Assembly: GCA_021156345.1 (NCBI GenBank)
Contig: JAJNDJ010000073.1
Coordinates: 1-11,560 of the forward strand
Length of the DNA stretch: 11,560 nt
DNA from: Rubrobacteraceae bacterium
GTDB lineage: Bacteria; Actinomycetota; Rubrobacteria; Rubrobacterales; Rubrobacteraceae
Reading direction: 5' to 3'
Shown: in pieces, positions 1 to 11,560 of the stretch
Position numbering within the stretch: the first letter of the stretch is position 1
Layout: each line of letters starts with the position of its first letter
Notes under the pieces: model-generated
The model's input: the letters and a program-made list of their open reading frames with translations, nothing else
Databases searched by the model: none
What the model was told of the DNA's origin: nothing
Translations under genes and position numbers: made by a program

Positions 1-238
1 GCATGTAGAGCCCCTCGCGGCGCGCCTCGACCATCCGCGCCGTTTTGAGCGCCTGGAGGTGCTGCGAGGCGCTTGCCACGGACATGTCCGTATCCCTGGC
101 GATCTCCTCGACCGTACGCTCCCCTTGGGCAAGGAGGTCCACTATCTCCAAGCGCTTGGGACTAGCCAGAGCCTTGCCCACCCTGGCGAACTGCTCGAAG
201 AGGCGGTCTTTGAACTCCCTGTGGGTGGCAGCGTTCAT
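1..238 (-). CDS. ArsR-family winged-helix repressor (N-terminal part, runs off the window)
   Basis: The gene reads leftward from an ATG at 238-236 and is cut by the window edge after 79 codons. It begins MNAATHREFKDRLFEQFARV, continues with the ArsR-type helices (KALASPKRLEIVDLLAQGE) and has the recognition helix region DTDMSVASASQHLQALKTARMVEARREG. Members are small dimeric DNA-binding repressors released by metals, metalloids, sulfur species or redox change. In actinobacteria this subtype often carries a C-terminal rhodanese domain, but that part is outside the window. The start is fixed by a sigma-70-like promoter whose predicted transcription start lies only a few bases upstream of the ATG, so the mRNA is probably leaderless. 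A palindrome covering the -10 box suggests autoregulation. The inducer cannot be told from this fragment. Confidence 0.9.
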   Translation of the reverse strand, partial: MNAATHREFKDRLFEQFARVGKALASPKRLEIVDLLAQGERTVEEIARDTDMSVASASQHLQALKTARMVEARREGLYM

Positions 239-240
239 AT

Positions 241-276
241 ATTCAACAGATTAATTGAATAGAACCCGGGCGTCAA
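241..276 (-). promoter_or_regulatory. Promoter with ArsR-type operator for the ArsR gene
   Basis: Read on the minus strand, TTGACG (276-271) and TAATCT (253-248) are separated by exactly 17 bases, a good -35/-10 pair. The inverted repeat ATTCAA-(8)-TTGAAT occupies 241-260 and covers the -10 box and the predicted start of transcription. AT-rich palindromes of this shape are usual for ArsR-family repressors. The ATG lies at 238, so the transcript would have almost no leader and no ribosome site. Confidence 0.65.
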
Positions 277-338
277 GACGGACCTGTTCACCCGAGTACG
301 TGGTCACTCGATTGCGTGGAAGATCGATTCTCAGAAGT

Positions 339-752
339 TCAGGAGCACTTCGGTGCCCGCAGGAAGCCGGTGGGGTCGTCGGCGTGCGCCCAGTGCTCTA
401 CTATCTTGCCGTTCGCTATGCGGAACATATCTATCGCTCTCACCTCCACCCGCTTGCCGGTGGGTGCGATCCCCTGGTACTCTCCCCGGTGGGTGCCGCG
501 CATGGTGACGCGGGCCGCCACCCGGTCCCCTTCGGCCATCACGTCCTCGATGGTGATGCTGAGGTCGGGGAAGCCGGCGCGGGCCTCTGCAAAGGTTTCC
601 TTGAAGGTGTCGATGAGCTTGGCTGGCGGGTCATCCGGGAGTAGCTCGTTATCGGGAGCCTCGGGGTCCACGATCTCTTCCGCCCGCCCGAAGTCGCCTG
701 TCGAGATGATCTTGTAGACCCGTCTAGCGATTGCCTTGTTCTCTTCCGTCAT
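339..752 (-). CDS. SnoaL-like / ester cyclase-type small protein
   Basis: A 137-residue protein of the SnoaL-like (NTF2 fold) family. It starts MTEENKAIARRVYKII and has the family pattern of a helical N-terminus, the segment FPDLSITIEDVMAEGDRVAARVTMRGTH split over two strands, and a terminal IVEHWAHADDPTGFL. Typical members are 130-150 residues and form a small alpha+beta barrel. Some are polyketide cyclases, but most bacterial ones have no known substrate, so the reaction here is unknown. The ATG at 752 is chosen because GGAAGG lies about 10 bases upstream and relatives start at this point; the frame is open 20 codons further upstream, which would overlap the preceding gene. It lies 40 bp after the thioredoxin-like gene on the same strand, so the two are probably co-transcribed. 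The ArsR gene follows after 100 bp. Confidence 0.85.
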   Translation of the reverse strand: MTEENKAIARRVYKIISTGDFGRAEEIVDPEAPDNELLPDDPPAKLIDTFKETFAEARAGFPDLSITIEDVMAEGDRVAARVTMRGTHRGEYQGIAPTGKRVEVRAIDMFRIANGKIVEHWAHADDPTGFLRAPKCS

Positions 753-792
753 GCTGGTTCGCCTTCCCAGGTGCCTTTGGTCTTGCCCGATA

Positions 793-1119
793 CTACGACA
801 CACCCGGCACAAGGTTGCGTTCGGCCAACGAGGCCCGCACCATCTTTGCCGTGGGCCAACCCCTCAGCCCCTCCGGGGTGGCGTACATCCTGCAACTGAG
901 CGCGTACTCCGCCCGATCCGGCACGGGGAACAGGTCCTCGCTGTCAACCCTGATCGTCGGGCTGCCTGGGAACCGGAGCCTTCGGGCCTCCTCGTCGGTG
1001 TTGACCGCCACCAACTCGACATCGGCCTCAACCTCCTCCTGGGTAAGCACACCGCGCAAGGTCTCCTCCGCCGCCCGGTAGGTCGGGCACCCGTCGAAGT
1101 ACAGCACCTCTATCCGCAC
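793..1119 (-). CDS. Thioredoxin-like fold protein with single active-site Cys
   Basis: A 108-residue thioredoxin-fold protein. It opens with a beta strand (RIEVLYFDGCPTY) carrying Cys11 at the usual active-site place, has the cis-Pro segment FPGSPTIRV at about residues 51-59, and ends with the conserved SCRMYATPEGLRGWP block containing Cys76. The second Cys of CxxC is Tyr14, so ordinary dithiol exchange within CxxC is impossible; Cys11 and Cys76 are the only cysteines. Related small actinobacterial proteins are found beside mercury, arsenic and redox genes, but their partner is unknown. I prefer the GTG at 1119 over the upstream ATG at 1152 because GAGGAG lies 7 bases before the GTG and the fold begins there. 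An inverted repeat at 1151-1174 sits just upstream and may be an operator. Confidence 0.85.
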   Translation of the reverse strand: MRIEVLYFDGCPTYRAAEETLRGVLTQEEVEADVELVAVNTDEEARRLRFPGSPTIRVDSEDLFPVPDRAEYALSCRMYATPEGLRGWPTAKMVRASLAERNLVPGVS

Positions 1120-1150
1120 AGTCGCGCTCCTCAAGCCGCCGAACATGGAC

Positions 1151-1174
1151 ACACATACAATATCGCGTATGTGT
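1151..1174. promoter_or_regulatory. Inverted repeat, possible repressor operator
   Basis: ACACATAC (1151-1158) and GTATGTGT (1167-1174) are perfect 8-base arms around an 8-base AT-rich centre. The repeat lies 32 bp upstream of the chosen start of the thioredoxin-like gene and has no T-tract, so it resembles an operator more than a terminator. It differs in sequence from the ATTCAA/TTGAAT repeat at the ArsR gene. I could not place a convincing -35/-10 pair around it. Confidence 0.4.
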
Positions 1175-1239
1175 CTAGTAGACTCTGTTCACTCGAGTGC
1201 CTAGAAGATGAATTCTGCGAACTCCGGCTCTTCTGCTCC

Positions 1240-2007
1240 TTAGGTGCTTGGGATGTCGCTGACGTGCCTGGCGCGGATAACTCGCGGAGACTCAGAGCCA
1301 CGCTGCACGAGCACTCTAACCTCCTCTCCGAGCGAGTGCTTGCGGATCGCAGTTTGGATCTCAGCAATGCTTTCCACAGGCTGATCGTCTACCTCCAAGA
1401 GGCGATCTCCTCCTTGAGCGTCGGTGAGGGACAGCGGGCTGCCGGCTCGCGGAGGTAGCAGCAGGAACCCTCGCTCTGTCTCTCCACTACTGGGCGCTGT
1501 CTCGCGCCATGCTTCGTTCACATAGTAGGTGCCGGCCGCCACGCATCCACACACACCCATGCTGCACATGGGGCATATGCAGCGGCACTCCAACCCTTGC
1601 TGCTCAAGCTCCCATGCGACCACGCTGGCGATGAGCTGGTCTATCTGCTGCGTTGCCTCAGCGTACGCCCGCAGGTGCCGCAGTGCGATCTCGCGCAGGG
1701 GTGGATCGTAGAGGCGAAGCCCCATCTCGCACAGCGTAGCGTAGCTGATCGCGGCAAAGTTGAAGGCCGTATAGTCAGCTCGTAGCACATCGGACACCGT
1801 TGGCGTCTGTACGCCATCCGCCTCACCCGCGCTTGCGCCAAACAAGGCAGAAACGGCGGTCCCGGTCGGCTCGACCGTCTCGTCTCCTGGCCTCTCCAGG
1901 TAAGCCTCGAGCGCCTCTCGCTGGCTTCTGGCTATCTCGCGGAAGTGCCGCACCACCGCCGCCGTCTCGGGATGAGCAAGCAGACTTTCTACGAGATGCG
2001 GGCACAT
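1240..2007 (-). CDS. Ferritin-like/Cys-cluster/PDZ fusion protein, 5' end cut by an IS
   Basis: The readable part is about 255 codons. Residues 11-135 are helical with a ferritin-like look (HPETAAVVRHFREIARSQ near the start, then YTAFNFAAISYATLCEM and LREIALRHLRAYAEATQQID). Residues 141-155 contain six cysteines in a tight cluster (CRCICPMC, then CGC) that could bind metal or an Fe-S cluster. Residues 178-249 look like a PDZ domain (GSPLSLTDAQGGDRLLEVDDQPV, then a typical helix and strand). The gene ends with TAA at 1242-1240. Its true start is missing: at about 1980-2000 the sequence passes into transposase coding sequence on the opposite strand, so the first residues (MCPHLVESLL) are probably IS-derived. 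It may still be expressed but is best treated as 5'-truncated. Function is unknown; the domain calls are from sequence appearance only. Confidence 0.7.
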   Translation of the reverse strand: MCPHLVESLLAHPETAAVVRHFREIARSQREALEAYLERPGDETVEPTGTAVSALFGASAGEADGVQTPTVSDVLRADYTAFNFAAISYATLCEMGLRLYDPPLREIALRHLRAYAEATQQIDQLIASVVAWELEQQGLECRCICPMCSMGVCGCVAAGTYYVNEAWRETAPSSGETERGFLLLPPRAGSPLSLTDAQGGDRLLEVDDQPVESIAEIQTAIRKHSLGEEVRVLVQRGSESPRVIRARHVSDIPST

Positions 2008-2446
2008 CTGCGTATCTGCTGGCCAGGGGTGATCGTCGATATGAACCTAGCGCCCGCCAACGTCCATGACCTACACATGGCCGAAGAACTACTGCTCGAA
2101 AGAGGAGGCGCAAAGGGCGGGGCCTTAGGCGACAGGAACTATTGGAGTCCACGGCTTGCCGAGCGGCTCAAGGTCGAGGGGTTGGACTTGCTCGCGCCCT
2201 ACAAGTCCAAAGACGGGAGACGGGGTACTGGCCCCGCTTTGTAGTGCGAAAGTGTCGCAGGATCGAGACGGTGATCGGGCACTGATGGGGCGCTACCGGA
2301 TCAAGCAGATGTGGGCTCGAGACCGCTGGCACCTCACCTCTCGCTGGCTGCGCAAGGTCCTGAGCCACACCATGGGTGTTTACCTCTGCCAAGGAGCCGG
2401 GCACTGCTCTTCGCCGTTATGTTTCTCGGAGCTTAGCACGCATTGA
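1980..2446 (+). mobile_element. Degenerate IS982-like transposase (C-terminal part)
   Basis: Three consecutive reading frames together give the catalytic C-terminal half of a DDE transposase: first FYEMRAHLRICWPGVIVDMN ... GDRNYWSPRLAERLKVEGL, then WPRFVVRKCRRIETVIG (from 2229), then MGRYRIKQMWARDRWHLTSRW to the stop at 2444-2446. The GDRNYWS Asp and the Glu of IETVIG are candidate catalytic residues. Frame changes occur near 2222-2229 and near 2281, where one base of a Gln-Leu pair seems lost. The N-terminal half is absent, and the left edge falls inside the ferritin-like/PDZ gene. I assign IS982 by overall resemblance; another DDE family (IS4/IS5) is possible. Terminal inverted repeats were not identified. 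It cannot encode an active enzyme. Confidence 0.7.
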
Positions 2447-2493
2447 TCAAAACCTGCACACGGAGTTGGCTACCAATCCTATCAAAGGTGGTT

Positions 2494-2499
2494 TATTAT
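2494..2499 (+). promoter_or_regulatory. Possible -10 box for the SARP-type regulator
   Basis: TATTAT lies about 70 bp upstream of the GTG chosen as start of the large regulator, in an AT-rich patch just after the IS remnant. No clear -35 hexamer was found at 16-18 bases, so this is a weak suggestion. Confidence 0.3.
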
Positions 2500-2571
2500 C
2501 TTGATGCACTTGCAGCAATAGGGGTCGCTGTGTCAGCTGGATCCTCCTCAGCAACATCTTGCGAGAGGGAC

Positions 2572-5500
2572 GTGAGTATCCACCTGAGTCTACTCGGAGG
2601 ATTCTCCGTTCGGCTCGACTCGCAAGAGGTGACGGAAGCAGCCTTTGCCCGCCGCAAAGCTCGCAGCCTGCTGAAGCTCTTGGCGCTTCGCCCTGGATAC
2701 CGGTTGCACCGGTATCAGGCGATGGACCTATTGTGGCCTGGACTATCTCCCCGAGGGGCAGCCGCCCAATTGTACAAGGCCGTCCACCACGTTCGGCAGG
2801 CTTTTGCCACCGTTTACCCCGAGCTCCCGCCAGAGACGCTCCTAGAAATACGTGGCGAGGTGCTTAGCCTGAAGGCTCCGGGCGGGATACATACCGATGT
2901 AGAAGAGTTCGAAGAGCTGGCTCAAGCGGCGATTCGCGATCGAGATCTGAACCTACTCCAGAGGGCGGTCGCTGACTACAGAGGGGATCTTCTCCCCACC
3001 GATCTGTATGAAGAGTGGACGGTAGAGTACCGCGATGTGCTACGAGAACGCTTTTTGGAGCTGTTGGTAAAGCTGGGCGAAGATTACGTAGCCGCCGGGT
3101 ATCCGGCCGAGGCCGGAGATGTCTTCCGTCAGGTTCTGACGCGGGAGCCAACCAGGGAGGAAGCGCACCGTGGCTTGATGCGTGTTTACTCTGCCCGGGG
3201 CAGTACTGCCCGGGCACTGCACCAGTACCGGCTGTGTAAAGAAATACTGGTAGATGAATTAGGTGTGGATCCCTCTAACGAAACTACCCGGCTGTACCAG
3301 GATATCCTCAGAGGTGAGGTAAAGTCGCTCCACCTGCCAAACTCTCTGCCGAGCACGAAGCCCATACCTCTGCCGCCGCTGGCCGGTCGGCGGTCAGAGT
3401 TGGAGACGATCTCTACGCTGCTGGAGCGTCTGGGTAGCGGAGAGGGATCTGTCCTGGGTATAGAGGGGAGCACGGGCATCGGGAAAACCCGCCTTGTGCA
3501 GGAGATCCTGCAGATCGGTCGAGGTAAGGGTTACCAGGTCCTCATCGGCCACACCAATGAGTTGGAGGGCCCATCCCCATACACACCATTTATCGAGGCC
3601 CTGCGTATGGCCCTACGTGAGGATCTGACTCATGCCGGTCTGATTCCGTCGGAACTAGCCGTCGCCATACCGGAGCTTCCCCCAACCGCACAGCCGGTAG
3701 TCAGTGCCGATAAGGTAGCCGCTCAGAACGCCTTGTTTGCGGGAGTACTGCGTTTTCTCGCGGCTTGGGCACAGGACGTACCGGTCATCCTGATACTAGA
3801 CGATCTGCATGTCGCCGACGAAGGATCGCTGAAGCTCTTCCACTATCTGGCTCGCCAGGCTTCATCGCAAGCGCTTCTGCTGGTAGGAACTTGGCGACCC
3901 CATGAACCCGGCGCTGCCCCGGCGCTAGAGACCGCGATCAGCAGCCTAGAGCGTCAAAACCTCTTGCACTTGCTAACTTTGGCACCCCTTTCCAAGACCG
4001 AACATCGCGCCCTGCTGGAGCAAGTCCTGAAAGGTAGTGTGGACGATCGGTTGACTAATGAGATCTATCGCATCTCTGAGGGCAACCCGCTTTTCGCAAG
4101 CGAGATAGCGCACCAGCTGGCCACCACCGACCAAATCTCTTTGAAAGAGGGCATGTGGCGCATCGCCAAACAGGAAACACTTCCTCTTCCTCCCTCGCTG
4201 CAGACGCTGTTCGGTCGTTATCCGGCGCGTCTCTCGCTACCGCCCTCCCTGCAAACGCTGCTTAACCGACACCTGAGAAGCATCTCGCCGGCAGCGCTCC
4301 AGCTACTCCAACTGGCCGCGGTGGTAGGCCGGGAAGTGTCCTTTCCGGTCCTCCAAGCCGATACGGGTCGGGATCGTGAACCAACTTCTCTACTAGACGT
4401 GCTGGATGAGCTCCTGGATGCACGGCTCTTGGAAGAGACCGGGTTGAGTTACAGGTTCCCGCACCCTTTGTTGCGCGAAGCCGTCTACCAACAAATGTCC
4501 GAAGTCCGGCGGCGAGCGCTCCATGGTCGAGTAGCACGCGCGCTGGAGATGCTTTACCGGGACGATCCGGAGATGCCTGTCGAGGCTGTTGCCTACCACT
4601 ACCTGCAGGTCGGGGAGGTAGAGCAGGCGGTAGGCTACCTGATCCGGGCGGGAGATAGGGCTGAAGCGGTATACGCCCACGACGATGCGCTACTCCGCTA
4701 CGAAGAGGCACTCTCGCTCCTGGAAGAGGAGATTAGCACAGGGCTGCTGCTCCTCTCGGCCGAAGTGCAGGAGCGGGTCGGCGATGTACACCGGGCAACT
4801 GGTGACGTGGCCCGCAGCGTGGAGGCGTACCGGACAGCGCTTGAGGCTTTGACCCTGGCGAACATAGCGCCCTCCGAAGGGCCTCAGTCTACCCTACACC
4901 GCAAGATCGCCCTGGGCGCCATCCTGACTACCGACATGGCCACGGCCTCCGAACATCTGGGGCGGGCCCGCGAGATGCTGGGCCCGGATTCTTTAGAAGA
5001 AGCCCGGTTGTTGATCGCCCAGTCCCTGTTCGAATGGCACCGTAACGCCCTCGAGGAAGCCGTGCAGCATGCGCTGCAGGCTTTGGAAATCGCCGAAGCG
5101 GGCGATGCCCAAGTCGAGATCACCCAAGCCTGCGAAATGCTAGCCTTGGCCTATCTACCGCTGGGTAACTGGGAAGAAGGGTTGAAATACGAACTGCGCC
5201 GCCAGGTGACGGGATGGTCGCCCGACGTCGTGGTGGCCACCGACGGCCACCTGTGCCTGTGGGAGTACCACGTGCACGGCGACGATCCGTACCAAAAAGC
5301 CCAAGAGTTTATAGAAACCGTGGCAGAACATGCTACCGCTGTCGGAGACCTGCGGTGCGTAGCCGTCTGCCACTATGCTCTGGGCAGCATGGCCTTTTTG
5401 CGGGGCCATTTGGAACCGGCAGCGCAGAATCTGGCTCGGGGCTTGGAACTCAACCGGCGCATCGGCTCATCCGCTGGTGTGGCCTACACCCTGGCACGCC

Positions 5501-5574
5501 AAGCCAGCTTGATGACGGCTCAAGGAGACGCCGAAACCGGTTTCAAATGCTGGAGAGCTTGTGGAGACGGCTAA
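2572..5574 (+). CDS. SARP/BTAD-AAA-TPR transcriptional activator (main part, frameshifted near the C-terminus)
   Basis: About 1000 residues in this frame. Residues 1-95 are an OmpR-type winged helix (VSIHLSLLGGFSVRL ... FARRKARSLLKLLALRPG ... DLLWPG). Residues 100-250 are the BTAD helical domain, ending with the typical ELGVDPSNETTRLYQDIL. From about residue 275 an AAA/STAND ATPase starts with LAGRRSELE; Walker A is GSTGIGKT (Lys305) and Walker B is VILILDDLH (Asp410-Asp411). The rest is helical TPR-like repeat. Such proteins bind direct repeats near the -35 region and activate transcription, with ATP and an unknown ligand as switch. The frame is open back to a TTG at 2443, but I choose the GTG at 2572: GAGAGGG lies just upstream and family members start at this strand. 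Near 5545-5561 the frame is lost and the stop at 5572-5574 is premature; the TPR continues in another frame. A 17-residue tandem duplication lies at 539-572. Confidence 0.88.
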   Translation: MSIHLSLLGGFSVRLDSQEVTEAAFARRKARSLLKLLALRPGYRLHRYQAMDLLWPGLSPRGAAAQLYKAVHHVRQAFATVYPELPPETLLEIRGEVLSLKAPGGIHTDVEEFEELAQAAIRDRDLNLLQRAVADYRGDLLPTDLYEEWTVEYRDVLRERFLELLVKLGEDYVAAGYPAEAGDVFRQVLTREPTREEAHRGLMRVYSARGSTARALHQYRLCKEILVDELGVDPSNETTRLYQDILRGEVKSLHLPNSLPSTKPIPLPPLAGRRSELETISTLLERLGSGEGSVLGIEGSTGIGKTRLVQEILQIGRGKGYQVLIGHTNELEGPSPYTPFIEALRMALREDLTHAGLIPSELAVAIPELPPTAQPVVSADKVAAQNALFAGVLRFLAAWAQDVPVILILDDLHVADEGSLKLFHYLARQASSQALLLVGTWRPHEPGAAPALETAISSLERQNLLHLLTLAPLSKTEHRALLEQVLKGSVDDRLTNEIYRISEGNPLFASEIAHQLATTDQISLKEGMWRIAKQETLPLPPSLQTLFGRYPARLSLPPSLQTLLNRHLRSISPAALQLLQLAAVVGREVSFPVLQADTGRDREPTSLLDVLDELLDARLLEETGLSYRFPHPLLREAVYQQMSEVRRRALHGRVARALEMLYRDDPEMPVEAVAYHYLQVGEVEQAVGYLIRAGDRAEAVYAHDDALLRYEEALSLLEEEISTGLLLLSAEVQERVGDVHRATGDVARSVEAYRTALEALTLANIAPSEGPQSTLHRKIALGAILTTDMATASEHLGRAREMLGPDSLEEARLLIAQSLFEWHRNALEEAVQHALQALEIAEAGDAQVEITQACEMLALAYLPLGNWEEGLKYELRRQVTGWSPDVVVATDGHLCLWEYHVHGDDPYQKAQEFIETVAEHATAVGDLRCVAVCHYALGSMAFLRGHLEPAAQNLARGLELNRRIGSSAGVAYTLARQASLMTAQGDAETGFKCWRACGDG
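4186..4287 (+). repeat. 51-bp imperfect in-frame tandem duplication inside the SARP-type gene
   Basis: Two adjacent 51-base units (4186-4236 and 4237-4287) encode LPPSLQTLFGRYPARLS and LPPSLQTLLNRHLRSIS. The first eight residues are identical. Family members normally have one LPPSLQ.LI..RL..L segment at the end of the ATPase domain, so the first copy is an extra unit that keeps the reading frame. Confidence 0.7.
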
Positions 5575-5938
5575 GAGGATGGAAGAGGAGCGGCGGATGT
5601 GCACCGTCTGTGGCTTGCAGTTGTATCCTGCCTTGGCCTCTTTCCAACTTGCTTCCGGTGACCTGGAGACAGCATGGGCCTACACGGAGAAGGCTCAACA
5701 ACTGGCGGAGGCGGGCCAAAACCGAGCTGGGGAGGCACAAGTGTTGCGGGTGCGGGGTGAGATCCACGCCGCGCGAGGTGATCCGGGCGAAGCAAGAGCC
5801 TGCTTGGCCAGGGCAGCAGATATCTTTCGAGAGCTAGACCAGCGCTACGATCTGGCGCGCACGTTGCGGATCTGGGGCAATCTGCCTATCGGGACAAATC
5901 CCGAGACGCAAAGAGGCGGCCGGGCCCAGCCACGCTAG
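5545..5938 (+). pseudogene. C-terminal TPR continuation of the SARP-type activator, in shifted frames
   Basis: The TPR sequence of the preceding gene continues here out of frame. Reading with two small corrections gives FQMLESL, then VETAKRMEEERRM, and then clear repeat helices (ALASFQLASGDLETAWAYTEK, QVLRVRGEIHAARGDPGEAR) to the stop at 5936-5938. The frame moves twice in the same direction, as if one A was lost after 5547 (AAA before TG) and one G near 5561 (TTG-TGG). Both are short homopolymer sites, so either recent mutation or sequencing error fits. If corrected, the activator would be about 1120 residues long, a usual size for the family. Without correction the product lacks its last two or three TPR units and could still act. 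Confidence 0.7.
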
Positions 5939-6029
5939 GCGAATTTCTAAACCGGTCATCGTTAACCTCATTTCGCTTGCACGAATAACCTTTGAGCTGC
6001 TCATTAGAAAGCGCCCATCGGAGCAAGCC

Positions 6030-6075
6030 GTGGGGAGATCTTGGGAAGATTTTGGGAAGCTGTGCCATTTACGCT
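6030..6075 (+). promoter_or_regulatory. Putative SARP operator (three direct repeats, 11-bp period) and -10 box
   Basis: TTGGGAAG occurs at 6041-6048 and again at 6052-6059; a weaker copy, GTGGGGAG, lies at 6030-6037. The period is exactly 11 bp, one helical turn, which is the known arrangement of SARP-family binding sites, where the repeats replace the -35 box. A TAnnnT hexamer (TACGCT, 6070-6075) follows about 10 bases after the last repeat. The SARP-type activator gene ends 92 bp upstream and the small-protein/OsmC operon starts at 6136, so this is the expected place for its target promoter. Confidence 0.6.
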
Positions 6076-6135
6076 TAAGGCAAGGATAAACGATGCGGTC
6101 TCTTCGTGGAGCAGCACCAGCCAAAGGAGAAGGCC

Positions 6136-6435
6136 ATGAAGACGGTGAACGGGATAGACATCGGGAGTCTCTTAATGGTAGAAGCTGAGATTCCGCCTGT
6201 CTGCCACATCGAGACTCACGAGCCCTCCGAACCGTTTCTAGTGCCGGCGGAACTGAACTTAGAACCTGTCGAAGGGGCGACGATCGGGCCGGTTCGTTAC
6301 CCAGCGACGGAGGACAAGCGGTTCTTCTGGAGCCCAGCGGTGCAGCTGATCGAAGTGGAGCTGGATGTTAATTCGGATAAGAGTTGTAACAACGAGAAGA
6401 AACCAGAGGGAAATGGCGATGCAAACCCTGACTAA
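6136..6435 (+). CDS. Unrecognised small acidic protein, first gene of the OsmC operon
   Basis: A 99-residue protein that I do not recognise. AAAGGAGA sits 6 bases before the ATG at 6136, which makes this start more likely than the ATG or GTG codons upstream. It has no membrane segment, a single Cys in PPVCHIETHEP and another (SCNNEKK) near the hydrophilic tail, and many Glu and Pro. Its first residues (KTVNGIDIGSLL) resemble the first residues of the OsmC-family protein encoded at 7353 (ATINGVNVDQLV), which may be a shared targeting or interaction element. The gene lies directly behind the proposed SARP operator and overlaps the next gene by 17 bases, so the two are translationally linked. 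Confidence 0.65.
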   Translation: MKTVNGIDIGSLLMVEAEIPPVCHIETHEPSEPFLVPAELNLEPVEGATIGPVRYPATEDKRFFWSPAVQLIEVELDVNSDKSCNNEKKPEGNGDANPD

Positions 6436-6778
6436 TCACGAACTGGACATGTGGTCGTTCTACGAACCAGGGGATTGGCCCCTTGCAAAGACGAATACAG
6501 ACTTTATCTGGTTTCTGCTGAGTCCTAGTACGCAGAGCATGGAGATAATTGACCTCGATTGCGACCACATGACTCTTGCTTTATATGGACCACCTGGGGA
6601 AGACGGAGTACCTGGGGTAGTTCGGAGAATACTCGAAAGAGCGAGTATACAGCCAGGCGAACGGAAGCTCATAGTCGCTGCGATATACGATAGCTATCCG
6701 GGAATTCCTTGCGAGAAACGGCGGATGGCCAGAACCGTTGCCGCCTATTTCGATGTTCCGTGGAAAGTAAGAGCTTGA
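6419..6778 (+). CDS. Unrecognised small protein, second gene of the OsmC operon
   Basis: A 119-residue soluble protein that I do not recognise. It starts MQTLTNHELDMWSFYEPGDW; the ATG at 6419 is preferred over the ATG at 6413 because AGAGGG (6405-6410) lies 8 bases from it. The middle has two or three hydrophobic strands (FIWFLLSP, MTLALYGPPG) and the C-terminal half is helical and basic (VVRRILERASIQPGERKLIV, CEKRRMARTVAAYF). Its start lies inside the preceding gene, and the membrane-protein gene follows after 29 bp. Base composition looks more AT-rich than the genes after it. No function can be assigned. Confidence 0.65.
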   Translation: MQTLTNHELDMWSFYEPGDWPLAKTNTDFIWFLLSPSTQSMEIIDLDCDHMTLALYGPPGEDGVPGVVRRILERASIQPGERKLIVAAIYDSYPGIPCEKRRMARTVAAYFDVPWKVRA

Positions 6779-6807
6779 CATGAGTAGCAGAAAGGAGGTG
6801 AAAACAA

Positions 6808-7302
6808 ATGACAACTGAAAGACATGTGCAGCGCCAGCCGATTGCCGGCACCTCGCAGCTCAACCTCGGGGCCACGCTCGTCGCTCTCTCGGGCATAGGT
6901 CTGGTGGGTTACGGGGTGATGTTCCTGATCCGCAACTTCACCGGCTTTATCGAGCTGGGGCTCACCCCAGAGCACGTGGGCGGCACCCCAGCCCAGATAC
7001 ACACCTTCAGCCCCAACCTCTACGAATACATAAGCCACCTGCAGGTGGCTGTCTCTGGGTTCATCATTGCGCTAGGGGTCGTGATCATCGCCCTCGCATG
7101 GTACGGGATCAGAAAGGGCGAGCGCTGGGCGCTATGGACGGCGTTTTTGGGTCCGCTGATCGGAGTAGGAGTGGCTGTACCTTTGCACTTCCCCTATGGG
7201 ATCGCCACTATGGGGCACCTGGGCCTGATCTACCTCGACGCCCTGATCCTGTTAGTCGGAACGGTGCTCGCCTACACCGGCCTGCGCAAGGCGGAGGACT
7301 AA
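6808..7302 (+). CDS. Small integral membrane protein (four predicted helices)
   Basis: A 164-residue hydrophobic protein. Membrane segments lie at about residues 20-42 (LGATLVALSGIGLVGYGVMF), 76-100 (VAVSGFIIALGVVIIALAWY), 107-128 (WALWTAFLGPLIGVGVAVPL) and 135-159 (LGLIYLDALILLVGTVLAYT). The N-terminal 18 residues are polar and the loop between helices 1 and 2 is about 30 residues long. The ribosome site AAGGAGGTG, 8 bases before the ATG, is close to a perfect anti-16S match, so expression should be high. I cannot name the family; DoxX-like or a quinone-linked small membrane protein are possible comparisons. It stands between the two small proteins and the OsmC gene in the same operon. Confidence 0.75.
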   Translation: MTTERHVQRQPIAGTSQLNLGATLVALSGIGLVGYGVMFLIRNFTGFIELGLTPEHVGGTPAQIHTFSPNLYEYISHLQVAVSGFIIALGVVIIALAWYGIRKGERWALWTAFLGPLIGVGVAVPLHFPYGIATMGHLGLIYLDALILLVGTVLAYTGLRKAED

Positions 7303-7352
7303 GTGATGATCCCCTAGAAGCGCAGACGCAATCTGTTAGGAAGGAGGACATA

Positions 7353-7925
7353 ATGGCGACGATCAACGGGGTGAACGTTGACCAGCTCGTCTCTACGATC
7401 GAAGCGATAGAGGAGAACCCCAGCCTGGCCGAGTTCAAGTTTCGGACCGAGACGCAATGGATCGAAGGGGGCCACACCCGGACCAAGGTCCAGGGCTTCT
7501 ACGGCGCTGGCGCCGAGGACACTTCGCGCGTCGAGCCGTTCTACCTCGAGGGGGATGAGCCGCCGGTGCTCCTGGGCACCAACGCGGGGCCGAACGCGGT
7601 CGAAAGCGCACTGCATGCCCTGGCCTCGTGCCTCGCTGTCGGGTTCGTCTACAACGCCGCCGCCCAGGGCATCAGCGTCGATGCGCTGAACTTCGAGCTG
7701 GAAGGCGAGATCGACCTGCACGCTTTCCTAGGGCTCTCGGATGACGTGCGACCAGGTTACAAGAACATCAGCCTCCTCTACTGGGTCGAAAGCGATGCTC
7801 CGCGGGAGGAGATCGTGGAGCTCTGCGAGTATGTTCAGAGAACCTCACCCGTGCTGGATCTTATCCGCAATCCCGTGCCGGTCTCCGTGCGGCTGGCAGA
7901 GGGAACGGCCAGAGCCAGATCCTGA
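7353..7925 (+). CDS. OsmC-family protein
   Basis: A 190-residue OsmC/Ohr-superfamily protein, members of which reduce organic hydroperoxides or handle reactive sulfur through a Cys thiol. The core helix SALHALASCLAVGFVYNAA holds Cys93 at the peroxidatic position. The second conserved site, usually a Cys before PV, reads RTSPVLDLIRNPVPVSV, so the resolving Cys is absent; the only other Cys is 158. The N-terminal extension MATINGVNVDQLVSTIEAIEE is longer than in classical OsmC and resembles the start of the first operon protein. GGAGG lies 6 bases before the ATG. The gene is the last in the operon and is followed 28 bp later by a strong hairpin terminator. Confidence 0.88.
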   Translation: MATINGVNVDQLVSTIEAIEENPSLAEFKFRTETQWIEGGHTRTKVQGFYGAGAEDTSRVEPFYLEGDEPPVLLGTNAGPNAVESALHALASCLAVGFVYNAAAQGISVDALNFELEGEIDLHAFLGLSDDVRPGYKNISLLYWVESDAPREEIVELCEYVQRTSPVLDLIRNPVPVSVRLAEGTARARS

Positions 7926-7953
7926 GGTGGGACGGCCCAGAGGACGAGGCTCC

Positions 7954-7996
7954 GGGCGACTGGCCGGTTCGTCAGAACTCGCCAGTCGCCCCTTTT
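7954..7996 (+). terminator. Rho-independent terminator after the OsmC gene
   Basis: GGGCGACTGGC (7954-7964) pairs perfectly with GCCAGTCGCCC (7981-7991), and inside the loop GTTC (7967-7970) pairs with GAAC (7975-7978). The stem is followed by CTTTT. It separates the OsmC operon from the methyltransferase gene, whose start lies about 50 bp further on. The short T-tract may allow some read-through. Confidence 0.75.
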
Positions 7997-8043
7997 CGGC
8001 GGAGGGCATGAAGATGAGGAAAGTAGATTATGGAAGGGAACTG

Positions 8044-8925
8044 ATGAGCGATCATACACTCGAAAATCAAGACCTTGACGTAGAAGTCCTGCGAGAGGCC
8101 ATCCAGGAGGAGTACGCCGAGGTGGCGGCCAACCCCCATAAGGGCTTCCACTTCCACACCGGTCGTCACTTGGCCCGCATGCTGGAGTACGCCGACGAGT
8201 GGCTCAAGGACATTCCAGAATCCTCAATCGAGTCCTTCGCTGGTACCGGCAACCCCTTCAGCCTGGGCGAGCTGCATCCTGGCGAGCGGGTCGTGGACGT
8301 AGGATGCGGCGCCGGGATAGACACTCTGATCGCGGCGAAAGAGGTCGGCTCCGAGGGCCGAGTGATAGGGGTGGACATGACCCCCTCCATGCTGGAGAAG
8401 GCTCGCCATGCTGCGGAGGAGATGGACCTCGCCAACGTGGAGTTCCGGAAGGGTTACGCTGAGGGGCTGCCTATTGCCGACAAGTGGGCGGACGTGATCA
8501 TCTCCAACGGCGTGCTCAACCTCATGCCGGACAAGGCGGCGGCGCTGGAAGAGATGGCGCGGGTGCTGAAGCCCCGCGGTCGGCTGCAGATCGGGGACAT
8601 ACTGGTGCAGAAGCCTGTCCCCGATAGCGCCAAACGCAAGATAGAGCTCTGGACCGGGTGAATAGCCGGTGCTCTGCTGGAAGCAGAGCTAGAGGTCACG
8701 GTCGTGACCGCCGGCTTCGTGGGATTCGAGATCACCTGGCGCAAAGACGTCTTCAGCGATGCTCCCCAAGCAGGTAGCGCTGAGAAGTTCGGTACGTTGG
8801 GCATCAACTTCCGGGCTTGTAAGGCTGCCACCGAGGAAGAGTGGTCCGCGGCTATGGCGGCATTAAGCTGCGAGATCCCGCTCGGCGCTACAGGAGAAGA
8901 GGAAGCACGGCCCACACCTCTATAG
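8044..8925 (+). CDS. Selenocysteine-containing SAM-dependent methyltransferase (ArsM-related), TGA at 8659-8661 read as Sec
   Basis: Class I SAM methyltransferase of about 293 residues when the TGA is read through. Motif I is VVDVGCGAGID (Asp85 to about residue 93); the acidic end of strand 2 is VIGVDMTPSM; the later core is ADVIISNGVLNLMPDK and ARVLKPRGRLQIGDIL. Then comes KRKIELWTG, TGA (codon 206), IAGALLEAEL and a well-kept C-terminus (TAGFVGFEITWRKDVFSDAP, KFGTLGINFRACKA) to the stop at 8923-8925. Relatives have Cys at codon 206 ('WTGCIAGA'), and a SECIS-like hairpin follows the TGA, so Sec insertion is the best reading. The ATG at 8044 has GGAAGGG 5 bases upstream; an in-frame ATG at 8014 with GGAGG is also possible. 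If Sec is not inserted, the product stops at 205 residues and the gene is broken. Two arsenic-binding Cys of ArsM are Thr68 and Gly156 here, so the substrate is probably not classical arsenite chemistry. Confidence 0.8.
8659..8689 (+). promoter_or_regulatory. Bacterial SECIS-like element: UGA plus downstream hairpin
   Basis: After the in-frame TGA (8659-8661), GCTCTGC (8671-8677) pairs perfectly with GCAGAGC (8683-8689) around the loop TGGAA. The loop begins 16 bases after the TGA and carries G in its second position. Both properties match the known rules for bacterial SECIS elements, which bind the elongation factor SelB. The hairpin is inside the coding sequence, as is usual in bacteria. 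Confidence 0.72.
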
Positions 8926-9006
8926 CCTTTAGTCTAGCCACCGGACAGTTTTGGTAGAGAGCGGGGAAGCAAGCGGATAGATGGCCTCGTTACTTGAGCC
9001 AAGCAC

Positions 9007-9547
9007 CTATCCAGCATATTGCACCCCCAGCCGGAACACGCTGTGATCGCGCCCATCACTGCGGTCCACCATACGCCTTTGACCCCGTTTGATCACTCGT
9101 GCTCCGTGCTCCACCAGCCACACATAGAGCATCGCCACCGCCAAGGTTAGCCGAGAGAGCCGTCCGAAGCTACGTAGTTGGGTGCTTTCCAGGTCGAATC
9201 CGTGCCCCTTGGAAATCTGCAAACATCTGCTCGATCCACATCCGCCTTCGATAGCACGAGAGAGCTTTTGCGCACTCGGGCAAATTCGTCGCCAACAGCC
9301 ACGGCTCCTTTTCGCCCCTCTTCCAATAGAGCACCAGGTTCGTCCGGTGGGCGTCTAAGCGGCTCAAGAAGGCTCCCTACAACCATACCCTTTCCCCTCT
9401 TGGCTCGATCAACTCCCCCAACACGTAGTAGAAGCTCCACTCCTCCAGTTGCTCTATCAGCGCCACCGCTACGAATTCGCTGTCGCCGACCACCGAAACC
9501 CGCGCTGCCCCATCGGGCATAAGGCGCCTGATGCCGAGGCCTTCTTA
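9007..9547 (-). mobile_element. Degenerate IS4-family transposase (C-terminal part)
   Basis: On the minus strand the fragments join into the C-terminal half of an IS4-type DDE transposase: RRLMPDGAARVSVVGDSEF and EQLEEWSFYYVLGELIE, then SRLDAHRTNLVLYWKRGEKE, then the signature YRRRMWIEQMFADFQG and GFDLESTQLRSFGRLSRLT, ending at 9007. There is an in-frame TAG at about 9390, a frame change at a GGGG run near 9210 (one G too many), and an in-frame TAA at 9547-9545. Sequence before that is not recognisable, so the N-terminal half is missing. Candidate catalytic residues are the Asp of VVGDSEF and the Glu of WIEQMF. It is inactive debris. Confidence 0.75.
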
Positions 9548-9637
9548 CTGCAACCGGACTGCGACGCCCTGAGCCGTGGCGCTGCGGGTTGCTGCCCGCG
9601 AGAACCCGGCCGTTCTGCTAAAGCTGCACCGAGGAGG

Positions 9638-9657
9638 CTATTGGGGGAGCCCAATAG
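9638..9657. repeat. Perfect 8-bp hairpin with GGAG loop
   Basis: CTATTGGG (9638-9645) and CCCAATAG (9650-9657) are exact inverse complements around GGAG. There is no T-tract. It lies between the IS4 remnant and the PIN pseudogene, and may be an IS end or a leftover regulatory hairpin. Confidence 0.35.
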
Positions 9658-9675
9658 AGGACACTCGCGAGAAGG

Positions 9676-9698
9676 AGCCCGCCGCCCTCCGGGCTTTT
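9676..9698 (+). terminator. Possible rho-independent terminator
   Basis: AGCCCG (9676-9681) pairs with CGGGCT (9690-9695), followed by TTT. The stem is only 6 bp and no intact plus-strand gene precedes it, so it may belong to lost DNA. Confidence 0.35.
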
Positions 9699-9831
9699 GT
9701 ATCATCAGCAGCTACCCGGTGGACGGGTCTGGCGAGAGTTCCCATGGCCTGGTCCATTGGGAGGCGGGCATCACGCCGAGGAGGTGCGCGAGCGCCGCGA
9801 GGCGCAGCAGCACAGCCGCCCAGCCTGACCC

Positions 9832-10256
9832 TTGAGTTCTCCCCTCACTGTCCTCGACACTATGGTTGTCGTGGCCGCGATGGTCCGTCAGCGGCGGTAA
9901 TGGATGCCGTGGCAACAGGAGGCGTGGAACTCGCCATCAGCGACGACCAGCTCGCTGAACTCGTGCGCGTTATGGGCTACGAGGACATCCAGGGCGCGAT
10001 CCAGGGACCCTTGCGCGCCTTAGAGGTGGCGCTCGACATCGGTAACATGGGGTTCATGTACCACCCTCGCCGTCTCGACTGGCCGAGTCTTAGGGACCCG
10101 AAGGACGGTTGGATCTTCGACTTGGCGCACGCCGCCGGCGCGGACTACATCGTCTCCTACGACAGAGCGGTGAGGGACGCAGCCGCAGAGCTCGGGTTCG
10201 TTGCTGTCCTTCCGGAGGAGTTGCTGGAGATCCTTCGCCGCCAGTACGAGGTCTGA
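9832..10256 (+). pseudogene. PIN-domain (VapC-like) toxin, frameshifted
   Basis: The PIN fold is spread over two frames. The first strand, TVLDTMVVVAAMVRQR (9847-9897), holds the first acidic residue but has Met where PIN proteins have Asn (LDTNV), and then hits TAA. The rest is in another frame from about 9897: VMDAVATGGVELAISDDQLAE, then DPKDGWIFDLAHAAGADYIVSYDRAVRD with the remaining acidic residues, to the stop at 10254-10256. PIN toxins are Mg-dependent ribonucleases, normally paired with an antitoxin gene just upstream. No antitoxin can be recognised; a short frame ending at 9828 (HHAEEVRERREAQQ) might be a remnant. A single frameshift at the CGGCGG run near 9893 accounts for the break. 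The open frame upstream of 9830 in the C-terminal frame does not look like protein. Confidence 0.6.
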
Positions 10257-10273
10257 TCTCGAGGGTCCGATTG

Positions 10274-10285
10274 GCTGACGTCAGC
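10274..10285. repeat. 12-bp perfect palindrome
   Basis: GCTGACGTCAGC reads the same on both strands. It lies 18 bp after the PIN pseudogene and may be a regulator site or chance. Confidence 0.3.
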
Positions 10286-10460
10286 GGCATCGTACCGGGC
10301 ACCGACCGAGGATCGCAGGCGCACTGCAACCGTACTGCGACCGGGCCGGTACACGCCAGTACGCAGCGGGCACCAAATTGCCTGCGATACGCCAAGAATC
10401 CCACAGGTAAGCCAAATCACCGGACGCACCAGGATATTTTGGAACGTGCCCGAGCAAACT

Positions 10461-10503
10461 CGTAGCTGGAGCAGATCAGCGGTTGGAGTCCGCTCGTCGG
10501 CTC
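10461..10503 (+). tRNA. Degenerate tRNA 3' fragment (tRNA-Thr-like)
   Basis: AGCGG-TTGGAGT-CCGCT (10478-10494) is a complete T arm with a 5-bp stem and a 7-base loop; only one base departs from the TTCGAGT consensus loop. It is followed by CGTCGGCT (10495-10502), which looks like the 3' acceptor strand, but then by CTCC rather than CCA. Upstream, CGTAGCTGGAGCAGATC resembles collapsed D-arm and variable-loop sequence, with the anticodon arm deleted. It cannot be functional. A fragment of a tRNA 3' half is a common scar of integrase-mediated insertion; the Thr identity is only a resemblance. Confidence 0.5.
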
Positions 10504-10957
10504 TCCTTGGTCGCTCTACCTACGAGCTGCCAAGTCCCCTGACAAATGTCTCATTCGGGTGATGCACCGGGGCGTCACGTACGCTACGATATGTTCTAGT
10601 AAGGTGGGTTATGTCGAACGCCCGGAGCGCACAGCGATGACAGCGTCCAGTGCTGGAGAGGAAGGCTGTTCATTGGTCCCGGAGGGGCCGACAAGGCACG
10701 GCCGGCTATGGCGGTGGCCTTAGAGGCTGTGGAGGGTCTCAAGGACAAAGTGAGGTGGGTCGGGTTGCCTCGCTTTCGGAGTCGATCTCACGTCGCACAT
10801 CTTATGCAGATATTGCTGACAGCATGGACCATGTCTAAACAGGAAGGACGTCTAGGAGTACGCCTACCGGACGATCCGAGGGAGGCTGGGCGGGGCTTGA
10901 CGGCCCTGCAAGCCAAAGATGGACACTAATTGAGCGAAGATCACGGAAGGAGAGGCT

Positions 10958-11560
10958 GTGGATCATCAGGACGCGTTCACGACCGAAACAGCAGGACTCC
11001 CGGAAGCGTCGAGCCCGAGCATAGTCCGCCTCTACGACGGCGATAGCTTCGATCTACGCATCTACCCTGTACGCAAGCGCATCGGCGACGCCGAGGTGCG
11101 CATGCTCGGATACAACGGCTCGATACCTGGTCCGACGCTGCACGTCGAGCAGGGCTCGGAGATCACCGTGCAGGTGACCAACGACGGCGACGTCGAGGCG
11201 ACCGTACACTGGCACGGTCTTAGGCTACAGAATCTTTACGACGGGGTGCCCCAAGAGACGCAGGCGCCTATTCAGCCCGGAGAAGCGTTTACCTACAAGC
11301 TTCGGTTCCCCGACCCAGGACTCTACTGGTACCACCCGCACATCCGCGAAGACTTCGCCCAGGAGATGGGTTTGTACGCCCCGATCATCGTCGAACCCTC
11401 CGACTCTTCGTACTGGCCTGCCGTCGACCGGCAGCTGACCATCACCTTAGACGACGTGCTCATCGAGGACGGAAAGCTGGCGCCCTTCAAGCGCTCAGGA
11501 CCAACCTTCACCGCAATGGGCCGGTTCGGGAACTTAATGCTGATAAACGGCGAGAGCGAG
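10958..11560 (+). CDS. Multicopper oxidase (N-terminal 201 codons, runs off the window)
   Basis: The frame starts at a GTG (10958) with GGAAGGAGAGG just upstream and runs to the window end. The first cupredoxin domain is complete: MLGYNGSIPGPTLHVEQGS, then the copper ligand motif TVHWHGLRL, then LYWYHPHIREDFAQEMGLYAPI. The HWHG and YHPH histidines are the type 2/type 3 copper ligands. The second domain begins near DRQLTITLDDVLIEDGK; the type 1 copper site is outside the window. Multicopper oxidases couple four one-electron oxidations (Cu(I), Mn(II), phenols) to reduction of O2 to water. The N-terminus (VDHQDAFTTETAGLPEASSP) shows no Sec or Tat signal, so this one may act in the cytoplasm or the start may be misjudged. 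No link to the genes on its left is visible. Confidence 0.9.
   Translation, partial: MDHQDAFTTETAGLPEASSPSIVRLYDGDSFDLRIYPVRKRIGDAEVRMLGYNGSIPGPTLHVEQGSEITVQVTNDGDVEATVHWHGLRLQNLYDGVPQETQAPIQPGEAFTYKLRFPDPGLYWYHPHIREDFAQEMGLYAPIIVEPSDSSYWPAVDRQLTITLDDVLIEDGKLAPFKRSGPTFTAMGRFGNLMLINGESE

Follow-up and report, generated by a model that had tools for sequence, protein, structure and literature searches.

In the stretch of DNA analysed here, called the window (11,560 nucleotides; positions 1 to 11,560 of the forward strand of contig JAJNDJ010000073.1, assembly GCA_021156345.1, from a Rubrobacteraceae bacterium), a gene related to the arsenite methyltransferases (ArsM) carries an in-frame TGA codon. 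We propose, with a probability of roughly 85%, that it encodes an ArsM-like, predicted S-adenosylmethionine (SAM)-using methyltransferase with a selenocysteine (Sec) at position 206, whose insertion would be directed by a predicted selenocysteine insertion sequence (SECIS) hairpin. Decoding of the UGA itself as selenocysteine, put forward in the initial annotation of the window, appears close to certain from comparative analysis, being supported by the exchange of Cys and UGA among relatives, by purifying selection, by a SECIS-like hairpin and by the Sec genes found in the genomes of relatives. The elements concerned are the following.

8044..8925, + strand: ArsM-like SAM-dependent methyltransferase, predicted selenoprotein with a length of 293 residues when the UGA is decoded; start (ATG 8044) inferred by alignment.
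8659..8661, + strand: TGA within the frame (codon 206), aligned with Cys224 of CmArsM.
8671..8689, + strand: SECIS-like hairpin with 7 conserved pairs and a 5-base loop (8678-8682), starting 9 bases after the TGA.

The frame from 8044 to 8922 contains this single in-frame TGA and is closed by a TAG stop at 8923-8925. Behind the TGA it stays open, as had been described, for 87 codons and not the 88 first counted, and it encodes the segments quoted at that time, IAGALLEAEL, EITWRKDVFSDAP and GINFRACKA. Scanning one genome per species returned 202 relatives, the best 80 of which were kept and represent 79 distinct loci. Codon 206 is TGA in 74 of these loci and TGC in the other five (L007, L009, L013, L070, L073), nothing else being found; the initial annotation had suggested looking in homologues for Cys or UGA at this codon, and the two are indeed exchanged. 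Conservation of TGA at this codon is more than chance. Judged by record titles, loci with TGA are spread over more than ten phyla (Chloroflexota, Actinomycetota, Acidobacteriota, Gemmatimonadota, Nitrospirota, Thermodesulfobacteriota, Myxococcota, Pseudomonadota, KSB1, SAR324, Poribacteria, Latescibacterota and Marinimicrobia), individual labels of which may be wrong because most of these loci are metagenome bins. The subfamily to which the gene belongs is widespread and very likely one of selenoproteins. No relatives were present in the viral contigs scanned, and plasmid records gave only relatives below 60% identity by protein search, plus one short DNA match.

Among the 120 listed protein homologues, the best of 7,996, 81 stop at residue 205 and are catalogued with lengths of 203 to 221 residues, and the remainder have at residue 206 Cys (30), Trp (3), Arg (2), Tyr (1), Gln (1) or a gap (2). 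Fifteen Cys rows are placed among the Sec rows of the family, and the best tree, computed with the hairpin columns removed, takes 7 changes; grouping all Cys forms in one clade nevertheless passes the approximately unbiased test (p 0.17; 93 rows, P0008 and most sister-clade rows being excluded). Two loci, L051 and L075, have an additional in-frame stop upstream of the UGA and may be broken copies. In five loci, a second methyltransferase, about 40% identical, adjoins the family gene, and its equivalent codon is TGA in L112, L114 and L081 and TGC in L121 and L126. Paired UGA copies a few kilobases apart were also observed within one genome (6001-6825 and 9978-10790 in L002; L004 and L008 on the same contig).

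Regarding selection behind the UGA, which the initial annotation had recommended to measure, the ratio of nonsynonymous to synonymous substitution rates (dN/dS) over codons 218-261 is 0.047, 0.113 and 0.058 for the window against L001, L003 and L021, respectively, compared with 0.148, 0.150 and 0.147 upstream of the UGA, indicating purifying selection in frame. The dN/dS and codon-entropy work used an 81-row set from which eight short or broken rows were excluded (L049, L051, L067, L072, L073, L074, L075, L079), leaving 73 rows (69 Sec, 4 Cys). Of 17 pairs computed, two of which are Cys forms, 16 have a dN/dS of at most 0.16 behind the UGA and the pair L043-L047 reaches 0.43; the value of L038-L058 is void, synonymous change being saturated. 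Selection is relaxed in the tail beyond residue 261.

Directly behind the UGA lies a SECIS-like hairpin, identified by folding and covariation. The fold of 8656-8712 has an energy of -25 kcal/mol, and the minimum-energy fold of the window sets an eighth pair on top of the seven conserved ones. Over 76 rows (74 distinct), 98.8% of the stem cells pair, with 2 double changes; with 20 sister-clade rows added (94 distinct; L082 and three second copies excluded), 98.2% pair and 25 cells are doubly changed, in 4 of the 7 pairs. In 500 shuffles, a control that ignores kinship, the share of paired cells, the count of double changes and the covariation score are never reached, and the number of pair types is reached 17 times; stems slid along the alignment pair to at most 45%. 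The 69 Sec rows show almost no variation in the codons for Ala210, Leu211, Leu212 and Ala214 (entropy 0.19, 0.11, 0.34 and 0.11), and elsewhere in these rows entropy is higher, the lowest values being 1.20 at 77 fourfold sites and 1.02 at 31 sixfold sites. Upon folding, the stem is not formed in the five Cys forms. The model alignment (A4) contains 56 UGA rows and 13 listed homologues.

The Sec machinery, which the initial annotation had advised to look for, was sought in 50 genomes carrying scanned loci (45 with the TGA form, 5 with the TGC form), and Sec genes were detected in all 50. A selB gene above cut-off is present in 43 of them versus 2 of 14 control genomes, and tRNA-Sec scores at least 54 bits in 42, a limit of our own choice adopted because the Rfam cut-off of 47 bits was already reached in 5 of the 14 controls. 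The seven hosts without a full selB have either selA above cut-off (G006, G019, G021, G026, G046) or a tRNA-Sec of at least 66 bits (G033, G047). The genomes that carry L001 and L003, the nearest loci, have selA, selB and tRNA-Sec consecutively, the selA of the L003 host beginning at a contig end. The wider family is present in 20 of 246 Actinobacteria genomes (UGA 17, Cys 3), and selB at E 1e-66 or better is found in 14 of the 17 UGA-form genomes versus 137 of the 229 others, a difference that is not strong. Chloroflexota with a family match above 300 bits have selB in 7 of 7 cases versus 71 of 94 others.

What could such an enzyme do? Its predicted model adopts an ArsM-type SAM methyltransferase fold, the best solved folds being ArsM enzymes, and residue 206 aligns with Cys224 of CmArsM, in agreement with the initial remark that a conserved Cys precedes IAGA in this family. 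The description of the gene as ArsM-related stands for the fold but does not extend to the rest of the arsenite site: of the three cysteines that define it (72, 174 and 224), the first two are replaced by Thr68 and Gly156. Arsenite held by three thiolates is consequently unlikely to be the substrate. We propose that SelB with Sec-tRNA would bind the hairpin so that Sec is inserted at the UGA, and that Sec206, through its selenolate, would stand in for Cys224 as the sole remaining ligand of the arsenite pocket; it would be a lone selenolate because the two other cysteine places are Thr and Gly. This selenolate may hold a soft-element substrate beside SAM, which would methylate it, possibly with participation of His36 and His38. 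The candidates for this substrate are reactive species of sulfur or selenium and metal(loid) compounds in which a single ligand place is free. That a lone selenolate serves methyl transfer to a substrate other than arsenite seems to us an even bet, and sulfur or selenium species as the substrate a tentative suggestion that may well prove wrong. On a still broader, speculative view, which we also hold to be rather doubtful, the whole branch would have swapped its arsenite-binding cysteines for one Sec, giving rise to lone-selenolate methyltransferases of reactive S/Se species or metal adducts with OsmC, DsrE, TusA and rhodanese partners. As UGA is seen only in rows without Cys174, which have Gly at that place, the label 'arsenite methyltransferase' would then be wrong for the branch. 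This split offers a direct test of the role of selenium in ArsM-like enzymes and puts the arsenite label of the branch in question. Many known bacterial selenoproteins are thiol-redox enzymes (PMC13188914); here, Sec would act in methyl transfer.

Several observations weigh against this reading. Taken alone, the hairpin of the window is modest (z -2.8; 3 of 200 shuffles equal it), and an Rfam search found no family matching it. For 6 of the 17 pairs, dN/dS rises from the part upstream of the UGA to the part downstream (highest 0.43, L043-L047). Residue 206 is Arg (P0021, P0103), Gln (P0024) or Tyr (P0015) in 4 of the 120 listed homologues (69-71% identity) and a gap in two (P0093, P0120), which breaks a strict Sec/Cys rule; residue 206 is therefore dispensable or can be lost in some homologues. 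The initial annotation had named a sense codon other than Cys in close homologues as an argument against selenocysteine, and these four proteins, together with the two gap rows and three rows with Trp, possibly TGA read by another code, lower the Sec reading without overturning it. Three of the 17 UGA-form Actinobacteria genomes lack a selB match, one of them (G019) having selA above cut-off. In the other two, G349 and G220, the searches made for selA, selB and tRNA-Sec found no complete Sec gene: G349 has a selA fragment only (48 bits), G220 has no selA match and neither has tRNA-Sec above cut-off. The presence of selB is in addition weak evidence because the gene is common in the background (above cut-off in 78 of 101 Chloroflexota and 149 of 246 Actinobacteria genomes). 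Finally, since most loci are without any sulfur-relay neighbour, the substrate is a guess.

Among the alternatives, the most serious is a selenoprotein that nonetheless methylates arsenic as a genuine ArsM does; a trivalent arsenical, perhaps one already dimethylated and in need of a single ligand, would then be bound by Sec206, either alone or helped by, for instance, His36 and His38. In favour of this, arsenite takes three Cys ligands, the monomethylated form MMA(III) two and the dimethylated form DMA(III) one (PMC3877260), and the best solved folds are ArsM enzymes; of 73 rows, all conserve His36 and 72 conserve His38, and ArsR-type regulators make up 3 of 79 adjacent proteins. Against this stand the loss of the CmArsM Cys72 and Cys174 counterparts, a score of 232.8 bits with the ArsM model NF008823 (cut-off 263) and the absence of any arsenic efflux or reductase family from the 25 families, out of 84, listed for the 79 adjacent proteins. 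We consider this alternative rather unlikely. It is far less plausible that the UGA is a plain stop, leaving a working product of 205 residues and, behind it, sequence that is either vestigial or a small gene of its own (GTG 8704-8925). Such a stop would agree with the 81 truncated database entries and with the Pfam methyltransferase match, which ends at about residue 207. Same-frame purifying selection behind the UGA, Cys exchange in full-length forms and the frozen, covarying hairpin speak against it, and it is rejected because a pure stop would preserve neither the frame behind the UGA nor the hairpin. Least probable of all is a UGA decoded to an amino acid other than Sec, whether the code is reassigned (Trp in code 4, for instance) or a near-cognate tRNA reads through: the three listed homologues with Trp (P0002, P0003, P0030), which retain the LLEAEL stretch and may be TGA translated by code 4, are outnumbered by 30 with Cys, many family genes use TGA as their own final stop and the hairpin and Sec genes fit Sec, so that this option was rejected like the plain stop.

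The genes upstream of the predicted Sec methyltransferase include two that recur in its vicinity.

2443..5574, + strand: SARP-type regulator with BTAD and AAA domains, upstream; a similar gene lies upstream in other loci.
7353..7925, + strand: OsmC-family gene just upstream, start inferred (Pfam OsmC 55.6 bits).

The initial annotation regarded this setting as unusual, an opinion that does not hold, since it is recurrent: of 80 loci, the window being one, 12 have an OsmC gene at most 2.5 kb away and 10 a SARP gene in the fetched stretch, alongside DsrE (8), MFS (6), an ArsR-rhodanese type (5) and an MBL type (5), the domains of ten neighbour proteins having been checked. Among 79 adjacent co-directional proteins (82 found, 3 excluded), the commonest are DsrE (7), OsmC (6), rhodanese (4), MBL (3) and an ArsR-type helix-turn-helix (3). 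In L003, the gene row reads ArsR-rhodanese, Sec methyltransferase, rhodanese-MBL and MFS. A TusA domain is present in listed Cys homologues (precomputed Pfam) and, at cut-off, in the UGA form of L004. Together, the DsrE, OsmC, rhodanese and TusA context points to a possible sulfur relay.

Other features of the window deserve mention. The OsmC neighbour (7353-7925, +) scores 53.3 bits with NF041052, the model for OsmC-related (seleno)proteins, short of the cut-off of 95, and has no in-frame TGA. At 793-1152 (-), a small protein reaches 96.8 bits with NF049942, the model of the DF family of (seleno)proteins, for which 70 bits suffice, its codon being Cys (DGCP) and not UGA. An ArsR-type regulator cut at the window edge (2-238, -) has a start resembling that of the ArsR-rhodanese regulator preceding the Sec methyltransferase in L003. 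A TPR-like frame (5561-5938, +) overlaps the end of the SARP gene; because a separate TPR-like gene stands at the matching place in L005, L014, L016 and L022, the SARP region may be frameshifted. By eye, and with no family search made, 9007-9440 (-) and 1945-2244 (+) look like transposase remnants. Downstream of the methyltransferase, Pfam identifies a PIN-domain frame (9576-10256, +) and the start of a multicopper oxidase (10958-11560, +). A tRNA search of the window found none.

Although its UGA-bearing relatives occur in more than ten phyla by record titles, the gene has been hidden in catalogues because 81 of the 120 closest listed homologues are stored as ending at codon 206. No description of the subfamily was found in the literature searched; Haft and Tolstoy 2025, outside that search, may cover it, and three of the NCBIfam selenoprotein families come from that work according to a review table. 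NCBIfam holds three ArsM-like selenoprotein models, and the window protein as well as L001 and L043, scanned as examples, fall below the cut-offs of all three and of NF008823.

Compared with canonical ArsM and AS3MT enzymes (CmArsM 4fr0, CrArsM 5evj, human AS3MT 8xt7), the window protein shares the common SAM methyltransferase fold (33% identity with CmArsM over 219 residues) and differs by UGA at the Cys224 codon, Thr at Cys72 and Gly at Cys174. Sec-containing ArsM proteins are a known family, listed without motif in one source (PMC9312934) and with motif UxxG in another (PMC13188914). The arsenite methyltransferase selenoprotein WP_011987699.1 is assigned to NF008823, a model with which the window protein stays below the cut-off; judged by the table entry alone, it has Sec followed by xxG like the UIAG of the window (PMC9312934, PMC13188914). 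MTase_UXPK_star (NF047649; 229.7 bits, cut-off 460) and ArsM_DUF2284_UU (NF041536; 223.4 bits, cut-off 575) have two Sec against the one UGA of the window, and their ArsM-like methyltransferase part carries UxxG according to the review table (PMC13188914). With ArsM_AhpD_UU (NF041537, arsenite methyltransferase/AhpD selenoprotein), the window protein reaches 246.9 bits against a cut-off of 510; it has a single UGA and not several, and a Pfam scan of it found no AhpD domain. Motifs were compared with L105p2, L128 and L081p2 excluded (L135 duplicates L038 and P0008 duplicates L007): the window has FHFHTG and FAGTG where L130, which passes the NF041537 cut-off, and the nearby rows L131-L134 show different motifs that include a Cys two residues ahead of the Cys72 place. 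What these five loci have in common with the window is a UGA in the same position, followed by a hairpin, and a Gly where CmArsM has Cys174.
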